From a virus, in IMG/VR virus record IMGVR_UViG_3300050821_008688, positions 35,669 through 99,668 of that record: DNA of 64,000 nucleotides; one strand, 5' to 3'. Numbering within the stretch: position 1 is the first letter of the stretch; each line of letters opens with the position of its first letter. The notes under the pieces were generated by a model. The model saw only the letters and a list, made by a program, of their open reading frames with translations. It had not been told where the DNA came from and searched no databases. Positions 33,984 through 55,727 of the stretch are shown here, piece after piece. The position numbers and the translations under genes were made by a program.

Positions 33984-34061
33984 CGCGGGGTCGTCTAGTC
34001 CGGTCTAAGACGCGGGTCTCATAAACCTGCATCGTGGGTTCAAATCCCACCCCCGCTACCA
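33984..34061 (+). tRNA. tRNA-Met (CAT)
   Basis: Full cloverleaf: acceptor GCGGGG/CCCCGC, D arm GTCT/AGAC, anticodon arm CGGGT-CTCATAA-ACCTG, T arm GTGGG-TTCAAAT-CCCAC, discriminator A and encoded CCA. Anticodon CAT reads Met, or Ile after lysidine modification. The first pair C1-U72 is a mismatch, as in initiators, but the anticodon stem lacks three consecutive G-C pairs. Confidence 0.92.
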
Positions 34062-34066
34062 TTTTC

Positions 34067-34141
34067 GCGGGCTTGGCCTATTGGCAGGGCATCTGCCTTC
34101 CAAGCAGAAAAAAAAGAGTCCGATTCTCTTAGCCCGCTCCA
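34067..34141 (+). tRNA. tRNA-Gly (TCC)
   Basis: Acceptor GCGGGCT/AGCCCGC, anticodon arm TCTGC-CTTCCAA-GCAGA, T arm AAGAG-TCCGATT-CTCTT, discriminator U, encoded CCA. An unusual run of A in the variable loop. Reads GGA/GGG codons. Confidence 0.95.
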
Positions 34142-34149
34142 TATTTTTC

Positions 34150-34179
34150 TTGACTGGACAGGGAAGTGAGGAGTAGTAT
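34150..34179 (+). promoter_or_regulatory. Promoter of structured RNA/tRNA-Thr/Asn unit
   Basis: TTGACT (34150-34155), 18-nt spacer, TAGTAT (34174-34179). A transcript would begin about 34186. Confidence 0.5.
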
Positions 34180-34185
34180 CAAACG

Positions 34186-34315
34186 TATATCAGGGTAAGG
34201 CCCGCGTGGATTGCGGCATGCAGCGGAGTGATAGGAATAGTACCTCTGGCCGAGGGAAGACCCAATCAACTCAAACAGACATGCGAATCCTAAAGCCTTG
34301 TAAGAGGGGCGGGCC
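34186..34315 (+). ncRNA. Structured RNA candidate between tRNAs
   Basis: A closing 7-bp helix GGCCCGC (34199-34205) / GCGGGCC (34309-34315), then GGATT/AATCC (34208-34212 with 34286-34290), GCATG/CATGC (34216-34220 with 34280-34284) and hairpin CCTC/GAGG (34243-34255). The nested pairing over 117 nt is far more regular than coding sequence. It resembles none of tmRNA, RNase P RNA, 6S RNA or a group I intron as far as I can tell. Confidence 0.5.
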
Positions 34316-34330
34316 TCCTGCTTTTTCTAT

Positions 34331-34403
34331 GCCGGTGTGATGATAGACGCTAGGAACCTACGGTGAAATCCACCACAGCCTCCGGGAGAGGCAACCGGCT
34401 CCA
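34331..34403 (+). ncRNA. tRNA-like element ending in CCA (non-canonical)
   Basis: 73 nt long with GCCGGT (34331-34336) pairing ACCGGC (34394-34399), then U and CCA. Inside are GGTG/CACC and GCCTC/GAGGC hairpins and a weak TAG/CTA pair. No 7-nt anticodon or T loop can be made, so it is not a translating tRNA. It may be a relic or an independent element of the structured RNA. Confidence 0.4.
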
Positions 34404-34409
34404 TTTTTG

Positions 34410-34479
34410 TGGAGTGGGTGCATACGAAGACCATTGGCGACGTATGCATGGTTAGAGACCGAACCACTCCAGCCTTTTT
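34410..34479 (+). ncRNA. Double stem with U-run (terminator-like)
   Basis: TGGAGTGG/CCACTCCA (34410-34417 with 34464-34471) encloses TGCATACG/CGTATGCA (34419-34426 with 34441-34448) and an unpaired 15-nt segment, followed by GCCTTTTT. It could end the structured transcript or form a separate RNA domain. Confidence 0.5.
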
Positions 34480-34537
34480 AGGAGTACTGAGATGATTGAC
34501 GTGTGTGATGGAACGATAACAGGTGGCGTGACAACTC

Positions 34538-34612
34538 GCCCCTGTAGCGTTAAGGCAGAGCGCCGCACCCGTAATGCGGAGGTTGGTGGTTCAAGTCCAC
34601 TCAGGGGCTCCA
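34538..34612 (+). tRNA. tRNA-Thr (CGT)
   Basis: Acceptor GCCCCTG/CAGGGGC, anticodon arm CCGCA-CCCGTAA-TGCGG, T arm GGTGG-TTCAAGT-CCACT, discriminator U, encoded CCA. Position 33 is C instead of the nearly universal U, which is unusual for an elongator tRNA. Confidence 0.9.
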
Positions 34613-34615
34613 TTT

Positions 34616-34691
34616 TGGGATGTGGCTCAACTGGTACAGCAGGTGATTGTTAATCACCCACTTGTAGGTCCGATTCCTACCGTCCCAGCCA
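34616..34691 (+). tRNA. tRNA-Asn (GTT)
   Basis: Acceptor TGGGATG/CGTCCCA, anticodon arm GGTGA-TTGTTAA-TCACC, T arm GTAGG-TCCGATT-CCTAC, discriminator G, encoded CCA. Confidence 0.95.
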
Positions 34692-51387: not shown

Positions 51388-52961
51388 GCGACCTAGACCG
51401 CGACCAACAGGCAATAGTTGATTCCCCGGAAGGGGTTCGTATTGTGGTAGCTGGTCCCGGCACCGGCAAGACTACCACGATGGTGGAATTGATTCACTCG
51501 TTGCTAGACGCGGGGGTTTCTGCTTCAGATATCCGCGCGGTCACTTTCTCGAAAGAGATGGCTGATGTTTTAGAAAAGCGTACGAAAGTGGCGGGCATCG
51601 TTTCCACACTTCATAGCTTGGGATACAGAATTTGTTCCGAGACAGACCGTAAACCAGTTGAACCTGAACTACGACACCGGCTAATGTGCAAACTAATTCG
51701 CAAGTGGCACGTTGACTACAAAGAGCTAGACAATTTCATCGCAAAGATGCGTCGAGAAAACTTGGAGCCTCGGGAGGCAGCGGAATGCGGAAAATACGAT
51801 TACGGCTTTATCGGAGCCTACAGCGAGTACGAACGTGTCAGACGGGCGGAAGGTTGGATGGACTTCGACAGTATGTTGCACGATTCCGTACAAATGTTAG
51901 AAAATGCACAAACTCGTGCAAGGTGGCAATCCAAATACCTGATTGTGGACGAAGCGCAAGATACGGACGATTTGCAGTGGCGGATGATGCAACTCATGTC
52001 GGAGAAATACGGCAACGTCACCGTGGTCGGTGACCCAAATCAAGCCATATACGGTTTTCGTGGAGCAAAACCAGAGAATATTACTGAGTTTGAGAAATGG
52101 TTTCCCGGTGGTAGGAATCTTTATCTCGGGAGAAACTATCGCAGCACGCGCAACATCGTGAAATTTATTCGAGAAAATGCGCCGAAGGGTACGCCGAGAG
52201 AGTTGTTGGACAAAATGGTGGCAGTGCGCGACGAAGACGGGCCGATAATTGGTTTGAAGATGTACTGGAACGAGGATGTGGAGGCTGAATCGGCGTTGAA
52301 ATTGGCATCAGCGGACCCACTGAACAGCGTTATTCTGGCACGCACCAATCGGATGGTCGGTTTGTTAGAACGAATCTGCAACCGCCACAGTATTCGGTAT
52401 CACTTGTTGGGGAAGACGAGCTTCTGGAAGCAGAATGAGATTCGCAAGGCCGTTGATGCGCTGAAAAACTACCCGACTCTTTTGACTGAAGCCGCATGCA
52501 ATGTAGCACTACCGCATATTGAAGCGAAATATGCAGTGGAAGACCGCACCGACCGGGATAACGATGCGCTCGAAAATCTGGCGGTGTTGCGCATTATCGG
52601 TAAGGATTATAAGATGGCGCGCGATTTTGTAGTTTATGCCAACAAGATGATGCACCGTCGCAATGACCCGCGCGGGATAACGATTTCCACGATTCACCAA
52701 GCGAAAGGCGGCGAGTGGGACAACGTTTATCTCATTGGCGCGAATGCCAAGATGATTCCACACGTTAAGGGTGACCCGCTTGAAGAGGAGCGGATTTATT
52801 TCGTGGCGATTTCTCGCCCGCGCAACTATTTGCGTATTTCGTTTGCAGGAACGCCATCCCCGTATCTGCGGAAGTATCTGACCGAGGAAATTTTGGACAA
52901 GCTGACGGCATGCGCGGACGAGGTTCAGCGGTTAGGGGAACAACATGAACTTTTCTCTTGA
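51384..52961 (+). CDS. UvrD/Rep-type superfamily 1 helicase (525 aa)
   Basis: Motif I VAGPGTGKTT (near 23), II LIVDEAQDTDDLQW, III VVGDPNQAIYGFRG, IV YLGRNYRSTRNIV, V STIHQAKGGEWDNVYLIG and VI YFVAISRPRNYL are all intact. Shorter than host UvrD (about 720 aa). Probably unwinds forks or recombination intermediates. Confidence 0.92.
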   Translation: MSDLDRDQQAIVDSPEGVRIVVAGPGTGKTTTMVELIHSLLDAGVSASDIRAVTFSKEMADVLEKRTKVAGIVSTLHSLGYRICSETDRKPVEPELRHRLMCKLIRKWHVDYKELDNFIAKMRRENLEPREAAECGKYDYGFIGAYSEYERVRRAEGWMDFDSMLHDSVQMLENAQTRARWQSKYLIVDEAQDTDDLQWRMMQLMSEKYGNVTVVGDPNQAIYGFRGAKPENITEFEKWFPGGRNLYLGRNYRSTRNIVKFIRENAPKGTPRELLDKMVAVRDEDGPIIGLKMYWNEDVEAESALKLASADPLNSVILARTNRMVGLLERICNRHSIRYHLLGKTSFWKQNEIRKAVDALKNYPTLLTEAACNVALPHIEAKYAVEDRTDRDNDALENLAVLRIIGKDYKMARDFVVYANKMMHRRNDPRGITISTIHQAKGGEWDNVYLIGANAKMIPHVKGDPLEEERIYFVAISRPRNYLRISFAGTPSPYLRKYLTEEILDKLTACADEVQRLGEQHELFS

Positions 52962-53051: not shown

Positions 53052-53981
53052 ATGAATTTCACCGTTGTACGAAAAAACATACCAATTGATGTTTCTCTGG
53101 TCAAATCCAACGAATTTGATGTTCGGGACGAGGCAGGTAAGGACCAATCGGCAATTGACGAATTGGTGGCTCAAGGATTTCTTTCTCAACTTCCAATTCT
53201 TACCTCGGATTATGTTCTTCTTGACGGACGAACGGGTTTTGAGGCTGAGAAAGTGTTGGATGGAAAGTTTGGCGAAGACGGCAAGTTAGTGGCACTCGCC
53301 ACTGTCGTGCGGGTAGACTTCGTTGGATTTGCGTGGGCGTCATTAACCCCTGAACAGAAACAGGAAGCCATTACATGGGCTCTTCAACGAAACTTACCCA
53401 CCTATGGTTTTTCACGCCCTGCCACTCAAGCGGACGTCCAGCATGTGGCGGTGCAGTTGATGGGGCAGGGGGCAGATAAAGCGAAAACAATAAAACTTCT
53501 GGTTTCGGCGGGCGTAAAGATTAGTCGCGCCACGAAGTTAAGTCAACTTGCCGAGAGTGAGATAAACGCTCGGGACACCCGTACCGCTGACACGTACAGT
53601 AAACAGCACGATGTCAGCCCAAGCGCGGCAGTATCAGCATTGGTGCGCCAAGGTGTAATTGCTCCTGCCCGTGCCGAAAAAGTGAAAGAAATGGTCAAGA
53701 ACTACGGGCAAAAAGGAAAGGTAAACCGTCCTCAGAGTACGTCATACGTTCGGACATCGCAAACGGCCCTGACGGATGCGATTGCCGCAGTGAAGCGGTA
53801 TAATGACGCCAATCTGAAAAAGTTTTTAGACGACAGCCACAAGTACACGGGAAAGTTTGTGGTTGACGTGGCTGATATCCATGTTCGGACGGCGGCGAAG
53901 ATTCTTGCTCAAGCCGAGCGTGGAGCAGACCGGATTCGGACGGAAGTGAATAAGCGGGTTCCATCCACACACCGCTTTTAG
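53052..53981 (+). CDS. ParB/Srx-fold protein (309 aa)
   Basis: VSLVKSNEFDVR, AIDELVAQGFLSQLPIL, LLDGRTGFEAEKVL and AITWALQRNLPTYGFSR follow the ParB N-terminal domain: partner-binding patch, then the DGRTxxxA box and the RN-L block. A helical C-terminal half follows (TADTYSKQHDVSPSAAVSA, IRTEVNKRV). ParB-fold domains load on DNA and, in several phages, take part in base-modification or nuclease systems. First gene of the cassette. AGGAGC precedes the ATG. Confidence 0.78.
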   Translation: MNFTVVRKNIPIDVSLVKSNEFDVRDEAGKDQSAIDELVAQGFLSQLPILTSDYVLLDGRTGFEAEKVLDGKFGEDGKLVALATVVRVDFVGFAWASLTPEQKQEAITWALQRNLPTYGFSRPATQADVQHVAVQLMGQGADKAKTIKLLVSAGVKISRATKLSQLAESEINARDTRTADTYSKQHDVSPSAAVSALVRQGVIAPARAEKVKEMVKNYGQKGKVNRPQSTSYVRTSQTALTDAIAAVKRYNDANLKKFLDDSHKYTGKFVVDVADIHVRTAAKILAQAERGADRIRTEVNKRVPSTHRF

Positions 53982-54016
53982 CGTTTGCTGTTGTACATGT
54001 TTTAGCCTTTTCAGTT

Positions 54017-54086
54017 GCAGGGCTCGTCCAACAAGGACACTCGGTCCTCCGAGGGAATATCGGTTTGACTCCGATGCCCCGCTCCA
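54017..54086 (+). ncRNA. tRNA-Gly-like RNA with 4-nt anticodon loop
   Basis: Acceptor GCAGGGC (54017-54023) pairs with GCCCCGC (54076-54082) with one A-C mismatch; discriminator U and encoded CCA. T arm ATCGG-TTTGACT-CCGAT is canonical in size. The D arm is GTCC-AACAA-GGAC, with no GG. The anticodon hairpin is CTCGG-TCCT-CCGAG, 4-nt loop with UCC. G1-C72, C2-G71, U73 and UCC are bacterial tRNA-Gly identity elements. T-loop position 56 is U, matching the missing D-loop Gs. It could be charged but hardly decode. Confidence 0.65.
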
Positions 54087-54103
54087 GTTTTACGGGGAGA
54101 ACT

Positions 54104-54718
54104 ATGTCACTTGAGCAATACACGGAAACAGAACTAGTCTTGCCCGAAAATCTTCCGAAAGACCAGTGGATTGCCGTAGGGGTGCGCCTGCGACTAGACC
54201 AAAAATCTATCCAGTGGTGGATTGGCGACTGGATAAACTACGGCGAAAAAGTTTACGGAGAAACGTATAAACTTGCGGCGAGTGCTACCGGGTATGAAGA
54301 AAGTTCACTTCAAACTATGGCGTCGGTCTCCAAGCGTGTTGAACCTTTGTTACGTAACAAGGATTTGTCTTGGAATCACCACAAAGAAGTAGCTTCGCTC
54401 GACACCCCTGAACAACAGCGATACTGGTTGAACTGCGCCGCCCAGAAACCGCCTCTATCTGTCCGAGAACTCCGAGACATGATTCACCAGAAACCCGAAG
54501 CACCTCGGTCAGAAGAAATTTGGCGGTTGCGGGAGTGGATTAAACAAAATTGTCCATCAGTACAGGCGTATGTTCAAAATTCAACGTATGATGTGGTTGA
54601 ACGCTTGAAGACAGGGGATGTGGATAAATTCGATTTAGAGATTCGTCTAGTATCGGCGGACGATGTTAAAGTAATTTGCGCTCGACTAGCGCAACAGGGG
54701 TTCCCCATTGAAGCGTGA
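54104..54718 (+). CDS. Unknown 204-aa protein of the cassette
   Basis: GGGGAG precedes ATG 54104. SIQWWIGDWINYGEKVYGE, KLAASATGYEESSLQTMASV, LSWNHHKEVASLDTPEQQRYW and SVRELRDMI form a conserved block that I have seen in ParB-associated and HTH-type proteins of mobile elements. Likely binds DNA or the tRNA-like RNA. Overlaps the next gene by 11 nt. Confidence 0.6.
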   Translation: MSLEQYTETELVLPENLPKDQWIAVGVRLRLDQKSIQWWIGDWINYGEKVYGETYKLAASATGYEESSLQTMASVSKRVEPLLRNKDLSWNHHKEVASLDTPEQQRYWLNCAAQKPPLSVRELRDMIHQKPEAPRSEEIWRLREWIKQNCPSVQAYVQNSTYDVVERLKTGDVDKFDLEIRLVSADDVKVICARLAQQGFPIEA

Positions 54719-55727
54719 ATATGACACCGAGCGTAAAGACTACGCTACAAGCACGGCATTAACACTAATACACCCTGACAAAATTCGGGTTCTTACTACT
54801 CCATCCAGCGTGATTGCTTTTTATCAGAAAAGAATGTCTAAAGCTGATTGGCGTCCCGCTCCGGGTAGAAAACTAGGATTTCTTGTAGTTCAGGATGACT
54901 ACCTGCTAGGTCTTTTATTTTTAGCCACGCCTGTTATTCGCATGACGGTGCGGGACGATTACTTGTTCCCTCCAAGTGTTCGGTTCAAGTGGATGATGGA
55001 GCATAACGCATCTATTTTTAATATAGGACTCGCAACTCGGGACTTCATGGACCTATCTGTTTGTGTATCCGCGCAGCCTATTGGGTGGCACTGGAACCTT
55101 GGAAAATTGATGGCTCTTATAGCGCCCACGCTTGGGGATTTTGTGAACGCTCGATACAGCCAAGATACTTTTCGCGGAGTCATCACCACCTCTGTGTGGG
55201 GACGAAGCGTTCAATACAACCGTGTCTATAGATTTTTAGGCTTGTCCAAAGGAAACGGGCGCGAACAATATGATGACGCTGCCGTTGCCCGCATGGTTCA
55301 GGAACTACGACAGCGCTGTCCTCACTGCAATGAACGCCGACTCGAAGCCGACGAGTACTATGCAATTCACCCATTAAGTAAAACACGGCGCGCGTATCTT
55401 CATGCCCGTGAACTTCGAGATAAATTATCTGTAGGGGCACTCAACAAAGAATACGCCGACTTGTGTCTTGTGCCGGGACAACGATTTGGAGAAGGAACTA
55501 ATTCAGTCATGAGAAAAATAGCAGCATACCGCCAAATGACAGGGGACAAGTCCATCACCCTTAAACATGGAAAAGCCCGAGGCGTGTACTACCACCCCGC
55601 CGTGCCTTCCACTCAACGTGCCGAAGTTATTCAACAGTGGTTTACCCGCTGGGGTTTGCCGAGGTATGAACGGACCAAAAATGAAATACCCCCGTATCAA
55701 AACGGGCTGGAAGGGAGACCAGCATGA
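54708..55727 (+). CDS. DruA/DUF4338-like (Mom-like GNAT-fold) protein (339 aa)
   Basis: TTG start with CAGGGG 8 nt upstream; the only alternatives are far inside. LLGLLFLATPVIRMTVRDDY, FNIGLATRDFMDLSVCV, GKLMALIAPTLGDFVNARY and GVITTSVWGRSVQYNRVYRFLGLSKGNG follow the layout of the DruA/DUF4338 superfamily and, more loosely, of Mu Mom (a GNAT-like DNA adenine modifier). CPHCNERRLEAD supplies a zinc knuckle. It may acylate DNA or process a modified substrate. Similarity was judged by eye. Confidence 0.55.
   Translation: MKREYDTERKDYATSTALTLIHPDKIRVLTTPSSVIAFYQKRMSKADWRPAPGRKLGFLVVQDDYLLGLLFLATPVIRMTVRDDYLFPPSVRFKWMMEHNASIFNIGLATRDFMDLSVCVSAQPIGWHWNLGKLMALIAPTLGDFVNARYSQDTFRGVITTSVWGRSVQYNRVYRFLGLSKGNGREQYDDAAVARMVQELRQRCPHCNERRLEADEYYAIHPLSKTRRAYLHARELRDKLSVGALNKEYADLCLVPGQRFGEGTNSVMRKIAAYRQMTGDKSITLKHGKARGVYYHPAVPSTQRAEVIQQWFTRWGLPRYERTKNEIPPYQNGLEGRPA

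Follow-up and report, generated by a model that had tools for sequence, protein, structure and literature searches.

Within a 64,000-nucleotide window of the IMG/VR virus record IMGVR_UViG_3300050821_008688, a record of 99,668 bases, four elements on one strand follow each other in a compact cassette (Table 1): an open reading frame (ORF) whose product carries a ParB-like motif, a tRNA-Gly-like RNA, a gene for an LmbU-like regulator, and a gene for a DruA-like protein. ORFs are named here by their first position. ORF 53052 is separated from the RNA by 35 nucleotides (nt) and the RNA from the ATG of ORF 54104 by 17 nt, while ORF 54708, which begins with TTG, overlaps ORF 54104 by 11 nt. Reading the sequence bore out the order, strand, and spacing given in an initial annotation of this DNA. 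That annotation proposed that the RNA is charged by the host and donates glycine to a Mom-like enzyme guided to DNA by the ParB-like protein, an interpretation that the analysis described here partly supports.

Table 1. Features of the cassette in window coordinates
Feature	Position	Strand	Remarks
ORF, 309 amino acids, "ParB-like" by motif only	53052..53981	+	Occupies the place that ParB has in ParB-RNA-Mom loci
tRNA-Gly-like RNA, predicted to be non-decoding	54017..54086	+	70 nt, encoded CCA; covariance models R1 and R2; cloverleaf fold
Acceptor stem 5' strand GCAGGGC	54017..54023	+	Pairs with 54076-54082 (GCCCCGC)
Discriminator U73; CCA	54083; 54084-54086	+	
Anticodon arm CTCGG-TCCT-CCGAG	54040..54053	+	Loop too short for decoding, CC retained
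LmbU-like DNA-binding regulator, 204 amino acids	54104..54718	+	NCBIfam NF038070; weak HTH_ParB
DruA-like (PF14236/DUF4338) protein of predicted GNAT fold, 339 amino acids	54708..55727	+	Pfam, AF2, Foldseek

The RNA of the cassette is a degenerate tRNA-Gly. Read arm by arm, its gene is GCAGGGC-TC-GTCC/AACAA/GGAC-A-CTCGG/TCCT/CCGAG-GGAAT-ATCGG/TTTGACT/CCGAT-GCCCCGC-T-CCA, which folds as a four-arm cloverleaf with six of seven acceptor pairs formed and every other stem fully paired. It has glycine-type marks, namely, G1:C72, C2:G71, U73, and an encoded CCA. None of the 7-nt anticodon loop, G18G19, and C56 of a decoding tRNA is present: the D-loop is AACAA, the anticodon loop UCCU, and the T-loop UUUGACU. 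With only 4 nt in the anticodon loop, no G18G19, and a U at position 56, this RNA should not decode. ARAGORN and Rfam (at the threshold of the tRNA model RF00005) made no call for it. Covariance model R1, built solely from the RNAs of other phages, matches it with 37.4 bits (E = 2.3e-6), and model R2 does so with 38.6 bits (E = 3.2e-6). With these matches, an identity set for glycyl-tRNA synthetase (GlyRS) complete save for pair 3:70, and an adjacent DruA-like gene, the RNA belongs to a class that accompanies Mom genes.

The candidate enzyme, the product of ORF 54708, had been described initially as DruA-like and possibly Mom-like; it resembles DruA in Pfam and Mom by predicted fold. Its match to the Pfam DruA family PF14236 (5.9e-6, 26.1 bits) lies just below the curated cut-off of 27.0 bits, which DruA relatives of the protein exceed at the comparison loci L006 (41 bits), L005 (58 bits), and L104 (39.5 bits). 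The AlphaFold2 (AF2) model has a mean predicted local distance difference test score (pLDDT) of 77.9. In a Foldseek search of the PDB, its best matches are GNAT acyltransferases; the solved structure of Mu Mom, 8bv8, is the ninth match (probability 1.00; root-mean-square deviation, 4.4; template modeling score TMt, 0.47; E = 7.3e-3), and non-Mom GNATs score alike to it. In the viral structure library BFVD, the phage Mom protein S4TTR0 is the eleventh match. The Mom families PF25680 and phrog_1384 did not match the protein, which is thus predicted to be GNAT-like and Mom-like by fold and is not a Mom member by sequence. PADLOC matched the DruA-like protein alone, and weakly; a Druantia system, recognized by druA with the druE helicase and partners, was not called.

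RNAs of this kind stand beside bona fide Mom genes, which were found in phages with Mu Mom as the query. In Microbacterium phage Antuna, gene 48 encodes ParB, gene 49 encodes Mom, and gene 50 is a tRNA-Gly(ccc). Around the 80 nearest relatives of Antuna Mom in IMG/VR (range L197-L276, 491 kb), ARAGORN found only seven tRNAs, each a tRNA-Gly no more than 40 nt from mom, against a background in other phage loci of 18 Gly among 418 tRNAs (4.3%). R1, made from 12 RNAs, matched 47 of the 80 Mom loci at E ≤ 1, always at mom, its sole other match being a second copy in L226. R2, which was trained on R1 hits and for which about 27 of the 80 loci supplied training sequences, matched all 80 (each at E ≤ 1.4e-6), while the rest of the 491 kb gave a single weak match (E = 0.26). 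ParB_N is encoded at 79 of the loci, in 75 of them no more than 200 nt from mom, which nearly always lies downstream of it; PF02195 matched 10 of 12 ParB members that were scanned.

Among 82 RNA matches at these loci, 61 fall entirely within the mom ORF, at its 3' end, and 12 run across its stop codon; the remainder are downstream, upstream, or on the opposite strand (L197). The RNA is at the 3' end of mom everywhere except in L268, where it lies between ParB and mom, giving the order of the window: ParB, RNA, enzyme. In most ParB-Mom operons, one stretch of DNA serves as both codons and structured RNA, and, given that the RNA's position varies, coding constraint cannot by itself account for its sequence. 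The arrangement extends to bacterial genome contigs from several phyla, in which about 11 of 15 Mom loci carry the RNA (metagenome-assembled genomes of Nitrosomonas, Tolumonas, Calditrichaeota, Blastocatellia, Deltaproteobacteria, Thermoanaerobaculia, and Planctomycetota among them), and to the isolated Arthrobacter phages BarretLemon, Sonny, Shade, and Zartrosa, in which ParB and Mom are annotated. Two loci hold two identical RNA copies each: L256 (1312-1381 and 2023-2092), maybe by duplication around an inserted gene, and L226 (19-92 and 2175-2248), maybe as a terminal repeat of the assembly.

Selection on this RNA is evident from its pattern of conservation. G1:C72, C2:G71, G3:C70, U73, and the anticodon CC are the identity elements of bacterial GlyRS. 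Among 41 non-redundant RNAs, G1:C72, C2:G71, U73, and the CC in the anticodon loop are present in all 41 and G3:C70 is present in 40, while acceptor pairs 4 to 7 vary freely with compensation. In an alignment of 69 distinct RNAs that was fitted to the model, which favors structure, 95.2% of cells are paired and 380 are compensatory, versus 90.7 after shuffling and at most 90 in slid controls. A first, MAFFT-only alignment agrees (97.2% paired; 72 compensatory versus 19.5); it used a cleaner subset, as aligning all elements together with MAFFT gave poor results. Compensatory covariation in all stems implies selection on the folded RNA. The decoding features, in turn, have drifted, with many anticodon loops of 3 to 5 nt, triplets ACC, UCC, or CCC, lost D-arms, and a bulged A in the T-stem. 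This combination of retained GlyRS identity and lost decoding features fits the initial proposal of a non-decoding RNA that would be charged by GlyRS, and the analysis reveals an RNA family that lies within protein-coding genes and has gone unannotated. Earlier scans with degenerate-tRNA patterns had poor specificity and were superseded by the covariance models. The ACC triplet (A34), unusual for bacterial tRNA-Gly, occurs in tRNA-Gly-like genes of L037, L040, L066, L068, L071, L076, L127, L128, L216, and L249.

Degenerate tRNA-Gly-like RNAs also adjoin DruA-like genes, in several unrelated phage groups. A search with the ORF 54708 protein led to L002-L006; in L002 and L006, the RNA is directly upstream of the DruA-like start, in the operon, and the RNAs of L002 and the window have the D-loop AACAA in common. 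In L005 (5909-5981), it lies inside the 5' end of the DruA-like ORF (60.5 bits, E = 2.7e-11; outside training). A second, independent search started from the RNA: a pattern matching the 3' half of tRNA-Gly with U56 yielded 77 loci. In L048 (the same as L002), L054, L086, L088, and L104, the RNA is immediately followed by a DruA-like gene, and in L047 and L092, such a gene lies 3.6 to 4 kb away. Since the RNA alone, used as the query, pointed to DruA genes again, this search counts in favor of RNA-enzyme coupling. In T4-like marine loci (L104, L088, L054, L086, L177, and L187), a tRNA-Gly precedes the DruA start by 10 to 17 nt. R1 matched in 13 of 80 further T4-like DruA-like loci, and the tRNAs that simpler methods found in T4-like DruA-like loci are nearly all Gly. 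No DruA-like relatives were found in genome contigs. The co-occurrence of RNA and ORF 54708 homologs on which the initial annotation had staked its proposal is therefore seen in several phage groups, in addition to the Mom loci.

The surroundings of DruA-like genes offer further observations. In the marine T4-like L104 (7760-10273), the order is DNA polymerase, tRNA-Gly, DruA-like protein, and finally a ParB-N-like protein whose C-terminal part (IEVKCTQFSG) resembles a nuclease; the ParB assignment is a weak PHROG match, and the DruA-like and ParB/nuclease-like genes look like a modification-restriction pair. The tRNA-Gly genes of L054, L086, L088, and L104 have A19/U56 instead of the near-universal G19-C56, with the anticodon loop otherwise intact. 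In Pelagibacter phage HTVC008M (L019:2989-3516), a JmjC/cupin-like gene precedes the DruA-like gene, and phage Mosig has 2-oxoglutarate (2OG)-oxygenase genes nearby; a JmjC/cupin-like protein or 2OG-oxygenase with a DruA-like protein is possibly another DNA-modification combination. Cyanophage and pelagiphage DruA-like genes sit among gp44/gp62 or peptidase genes, with no RNA next to them.

The two remaining cassette proteins are less readily placed. The initial annotation assigned a ParB fold to the ORF 53052 product, which did not find confirmation: its motif, PI.T...LLDGRTGFEAEK, was seen by eye only; Pfam (including ParB_N, PF02195), PHROG, and PADLOC gave no match; a profile comparison with phage ParBs by hhalign was negative; and the AF2 model is unusable (pLDDT, 48). 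Close relatives of this protein were found neither in IMG/VR nor in phages. The ORF 54104 product, previously listed as an unknown protein, matches the LmbU-family model NF038070 (1.5e-26, 93.4 bits, under the curated cut-off of 125) and, weakly, HTH_ParB. The LmbU regulator family is known from antibiotic clusters; here, an LmbU-family regulator-like gene sits in a phage operon. The genes around the cassette look like phage replication genes. The initial annotation took the cassette to be inserted between the helicase and RecB-like genes; no close relative with an empty site was found to confirm this. A promoter claimed at 52958 was not recovered, as a scan for sigma-70-like promoters found one site in the region, versus 2.6 expected by chance. 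Elsewhere in the window (33984-34691), ARAGORN reports four ordinary tRNAs close together, for Met, Gly-UCC, Thr-CGU, and Asn-GUU; the phage's ordinary tRNA-Gly(UCC) is the one at 34067.

Genomics shows the coupling of the RNA to Mom and DruA genes; we further infer its expression and charging, glycyl transfer, a DNA acceptor, and a role for ParB. We consider it likely that the cassette serves the modification of bases in phage DNA and that its dedicated RNA is the amino-acid donor, supplied with glycine by host GlyRS. In this simplest reading, the RNA would be a glycine carrier like the tRNA-Gly used by staphylococcal FemX, but with DNA as the acceptor. The RNA would be transcribed with the operon and end in CCA. 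Its acceptor, discriminator, and CC identity positions are kept, so host GlyRS could charge it with glycine, and, with its anticodon loop, D-loop, and T-arm altered, it would stay out of translation. The predicted GNAT-fold DruA/Mom-like enzyme would then take over the glycine carried by the RNA and attach it to a base of the phage DNA, a step modeled by analogy on Mom acting at adenine N6, while the ParB-like and LmbU-like partners might give DNA binding or regulation. Such a transfer would make chemical sense for Mom, whose product is N6-carbamoylmethyl-adenine. N6-Glycyl-adenine is isomeric with it, and an intramolecular N-to-C6 (Smiles-type) rearrangement could connect the two. Phages without the RNA, such as Mu, could draw on host Gly-tRNA. 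On the whole, the data suggest that phage DNA is decorated with glycine brought by the RNA, and it is probable, if a little less so than for the cassette itself, that a widespread class of phage DNA hypermodification uses a non-decoding tRNA-Gly mimic as the aminoacyl donor for a Mom/DruA-type enzyme.

Other explanations of the RNA have to be weighed. It might act in cis on mom or druA mRNA, as a tRNA-like structure (comparable to those at the 3' ends of plant viruses) or a processing or regulatory element that RNase P, GlyRS, or the CCA enzyme would cut or bind to tune mRNA stability or translation, with no glycine passing to DNA; we regard this as unlikely. Such a role would suit the RNAs within the mom ORF (61) or across its stop (12) and the one at the ORF 5' end in L005; with the RNA inside the mom ORF, its maturation would cut the mRNA, and this placement suggests a possible trade-off between mRNA translation and RNA release. 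Nevertheless, the position shifts from inside the ORF to after it, before it, or onto the opposite strand (L197), while the GlyRS identity and CC stay fixed, and regulation by RNase P alone would need no U73, C35, or C36, nor glycine in particular. It is quite improbable that glycyl-RNA is the donor and the acceptor is a protein, peptide, or other RNA instead of DNA. GNAT-fold Gly-tRNA transferases with non-DNA acceptors do exist, namely, FemX/FemA; however, Mu Mom acts on DNA adenine, ParB_N, which binds DNA, is constant company, and the gene pair of L104 resembles modification-restriction pairs.

We reject two further readings on the grounds of Gly-only linkage, degenerate loops, and covariation. 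That the RNA is an ordinary phage tRNA-Gly for glycine codons, near mom or druA by chance, is very unlikely: near-normal 7-nt anticodon loops in L268, L177, L104, and L132 and the ordinary tRNAs of the window phage would agree with it, but only Gly occurs, and only at mom (seven of seven by ARAGORN; 80 of 80 loci by R2), many anticodon loops have 3 to 5 nt, D-arms are missing, T-stems are bulged, ACC, UCC, and CCC are mixed, and the window already has its canonical tRNA-Gly(UCC). An origin as attachment (att) site remnants or mobile-element scars from tRNA-Gly genes is hardly credible. tRNA genes are frequent att sites, and L256 and L226 have identical copies; against this stand compensatory covariation in all stems, full-length elements tied to mom or druA, and presence of the RNA in T4-like loci, whose lifestyle is lytic as a rule.

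Several results weigh against a glycine-donating RNA at the cassette and its relatives. No such RNA was found by R2 near Mu mom or at the diverse Mom loci L193-L196, which implies that a dedicated RNA is not obligatory and that host Gly-tRNA could serve. Most DruA-like loci have no adjacent RNA: this holds for those of cyanophage type and for most window-type relatives (including L003, L004, and L009-L011). The window RNA has A3xC70 where 40 of 41 relatives have G:C. Also, R1 and R2 are not fully independent, and training on some of the Mom loci leaves about 53 of the 80 as independent, some of them near-identical to training loci. Finally, the sequence profiles of DruA-like proteins and Mom are not significantly joined (hhalign E = 0.047); the two appear to be linked by predicted fold and a shared RNA, without significant sequence similarity.

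To our knowledge, no DNA modification found in nature has an aminoacyl-tRNA, or an RNA dedicated to the purpose, as its donor. The literature found gives no answer to the question of the Mom glycine donor, which our reading, if true, would answer, and the gene for the modifying enzyme would often harbor the dedicated RNA as well. RNAs that retain nothing beyond the requirements of GlyRS occur in all 80 ParB-Mom operons from one clade, as well as next to DruA-like genes. A link between Mom and a tRNA, or among ParB, Mom, and RNA, was not reported in the literature searched; preprints and most subscription journals lay outside this search, so earlier publication is possible. Cultured phages of Arthrobacter and Microbacterium would allow the donor questions to be tested directly. 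We know of no description of what DruA does in Druantia defense; the RNA link suggests a biochemical role for the DruA family.

Among known systems, Mu Mom (PF25680; PDB 8bv8) has a GNAT-type fold, which is also predicted for the window enzyme, and its product is glycine derived; RNAs like that of the window accompany bona fide Mom relatives in operons with ParB. In contrast, the window enzyme is DruA-like and outside PF25680, mom of Mu has no adjacent RNA, and Mu uses com, not ParB. Druantia DruA (DUF4338, PF14236) appears homologous in sequence to the window enzyme, whereas the window cassette is phage borne, without druB-E or a defense context, and has the RNA and ParB/LmbU-like partners. 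Staphylococcal FemX/FemA are GNAT-fold Gly-tRNA transferases that work with a dedicated non-proteinogenic tRNA-Gly, which has altered D and T loops and is kept from translation. The window cassette would resemble them in pairing a dedicated tRNA-Gly with an enzyme of predicted GNAT type; they differ in their peptidoglycan acceptor, an intact anticodon loop, and a setting other than a phage operon. The CmoX/CmoY phage cytosine modification places a glycine amide on a DNA base and has ParBc genes nearby (PMC12783734), but it proceeds through carboxy-S-adenosylmethionine (Cx-SAM) and the joining of glycine by an ATP-dependent amide ligase, with no tRNA donor (PMC12783734).

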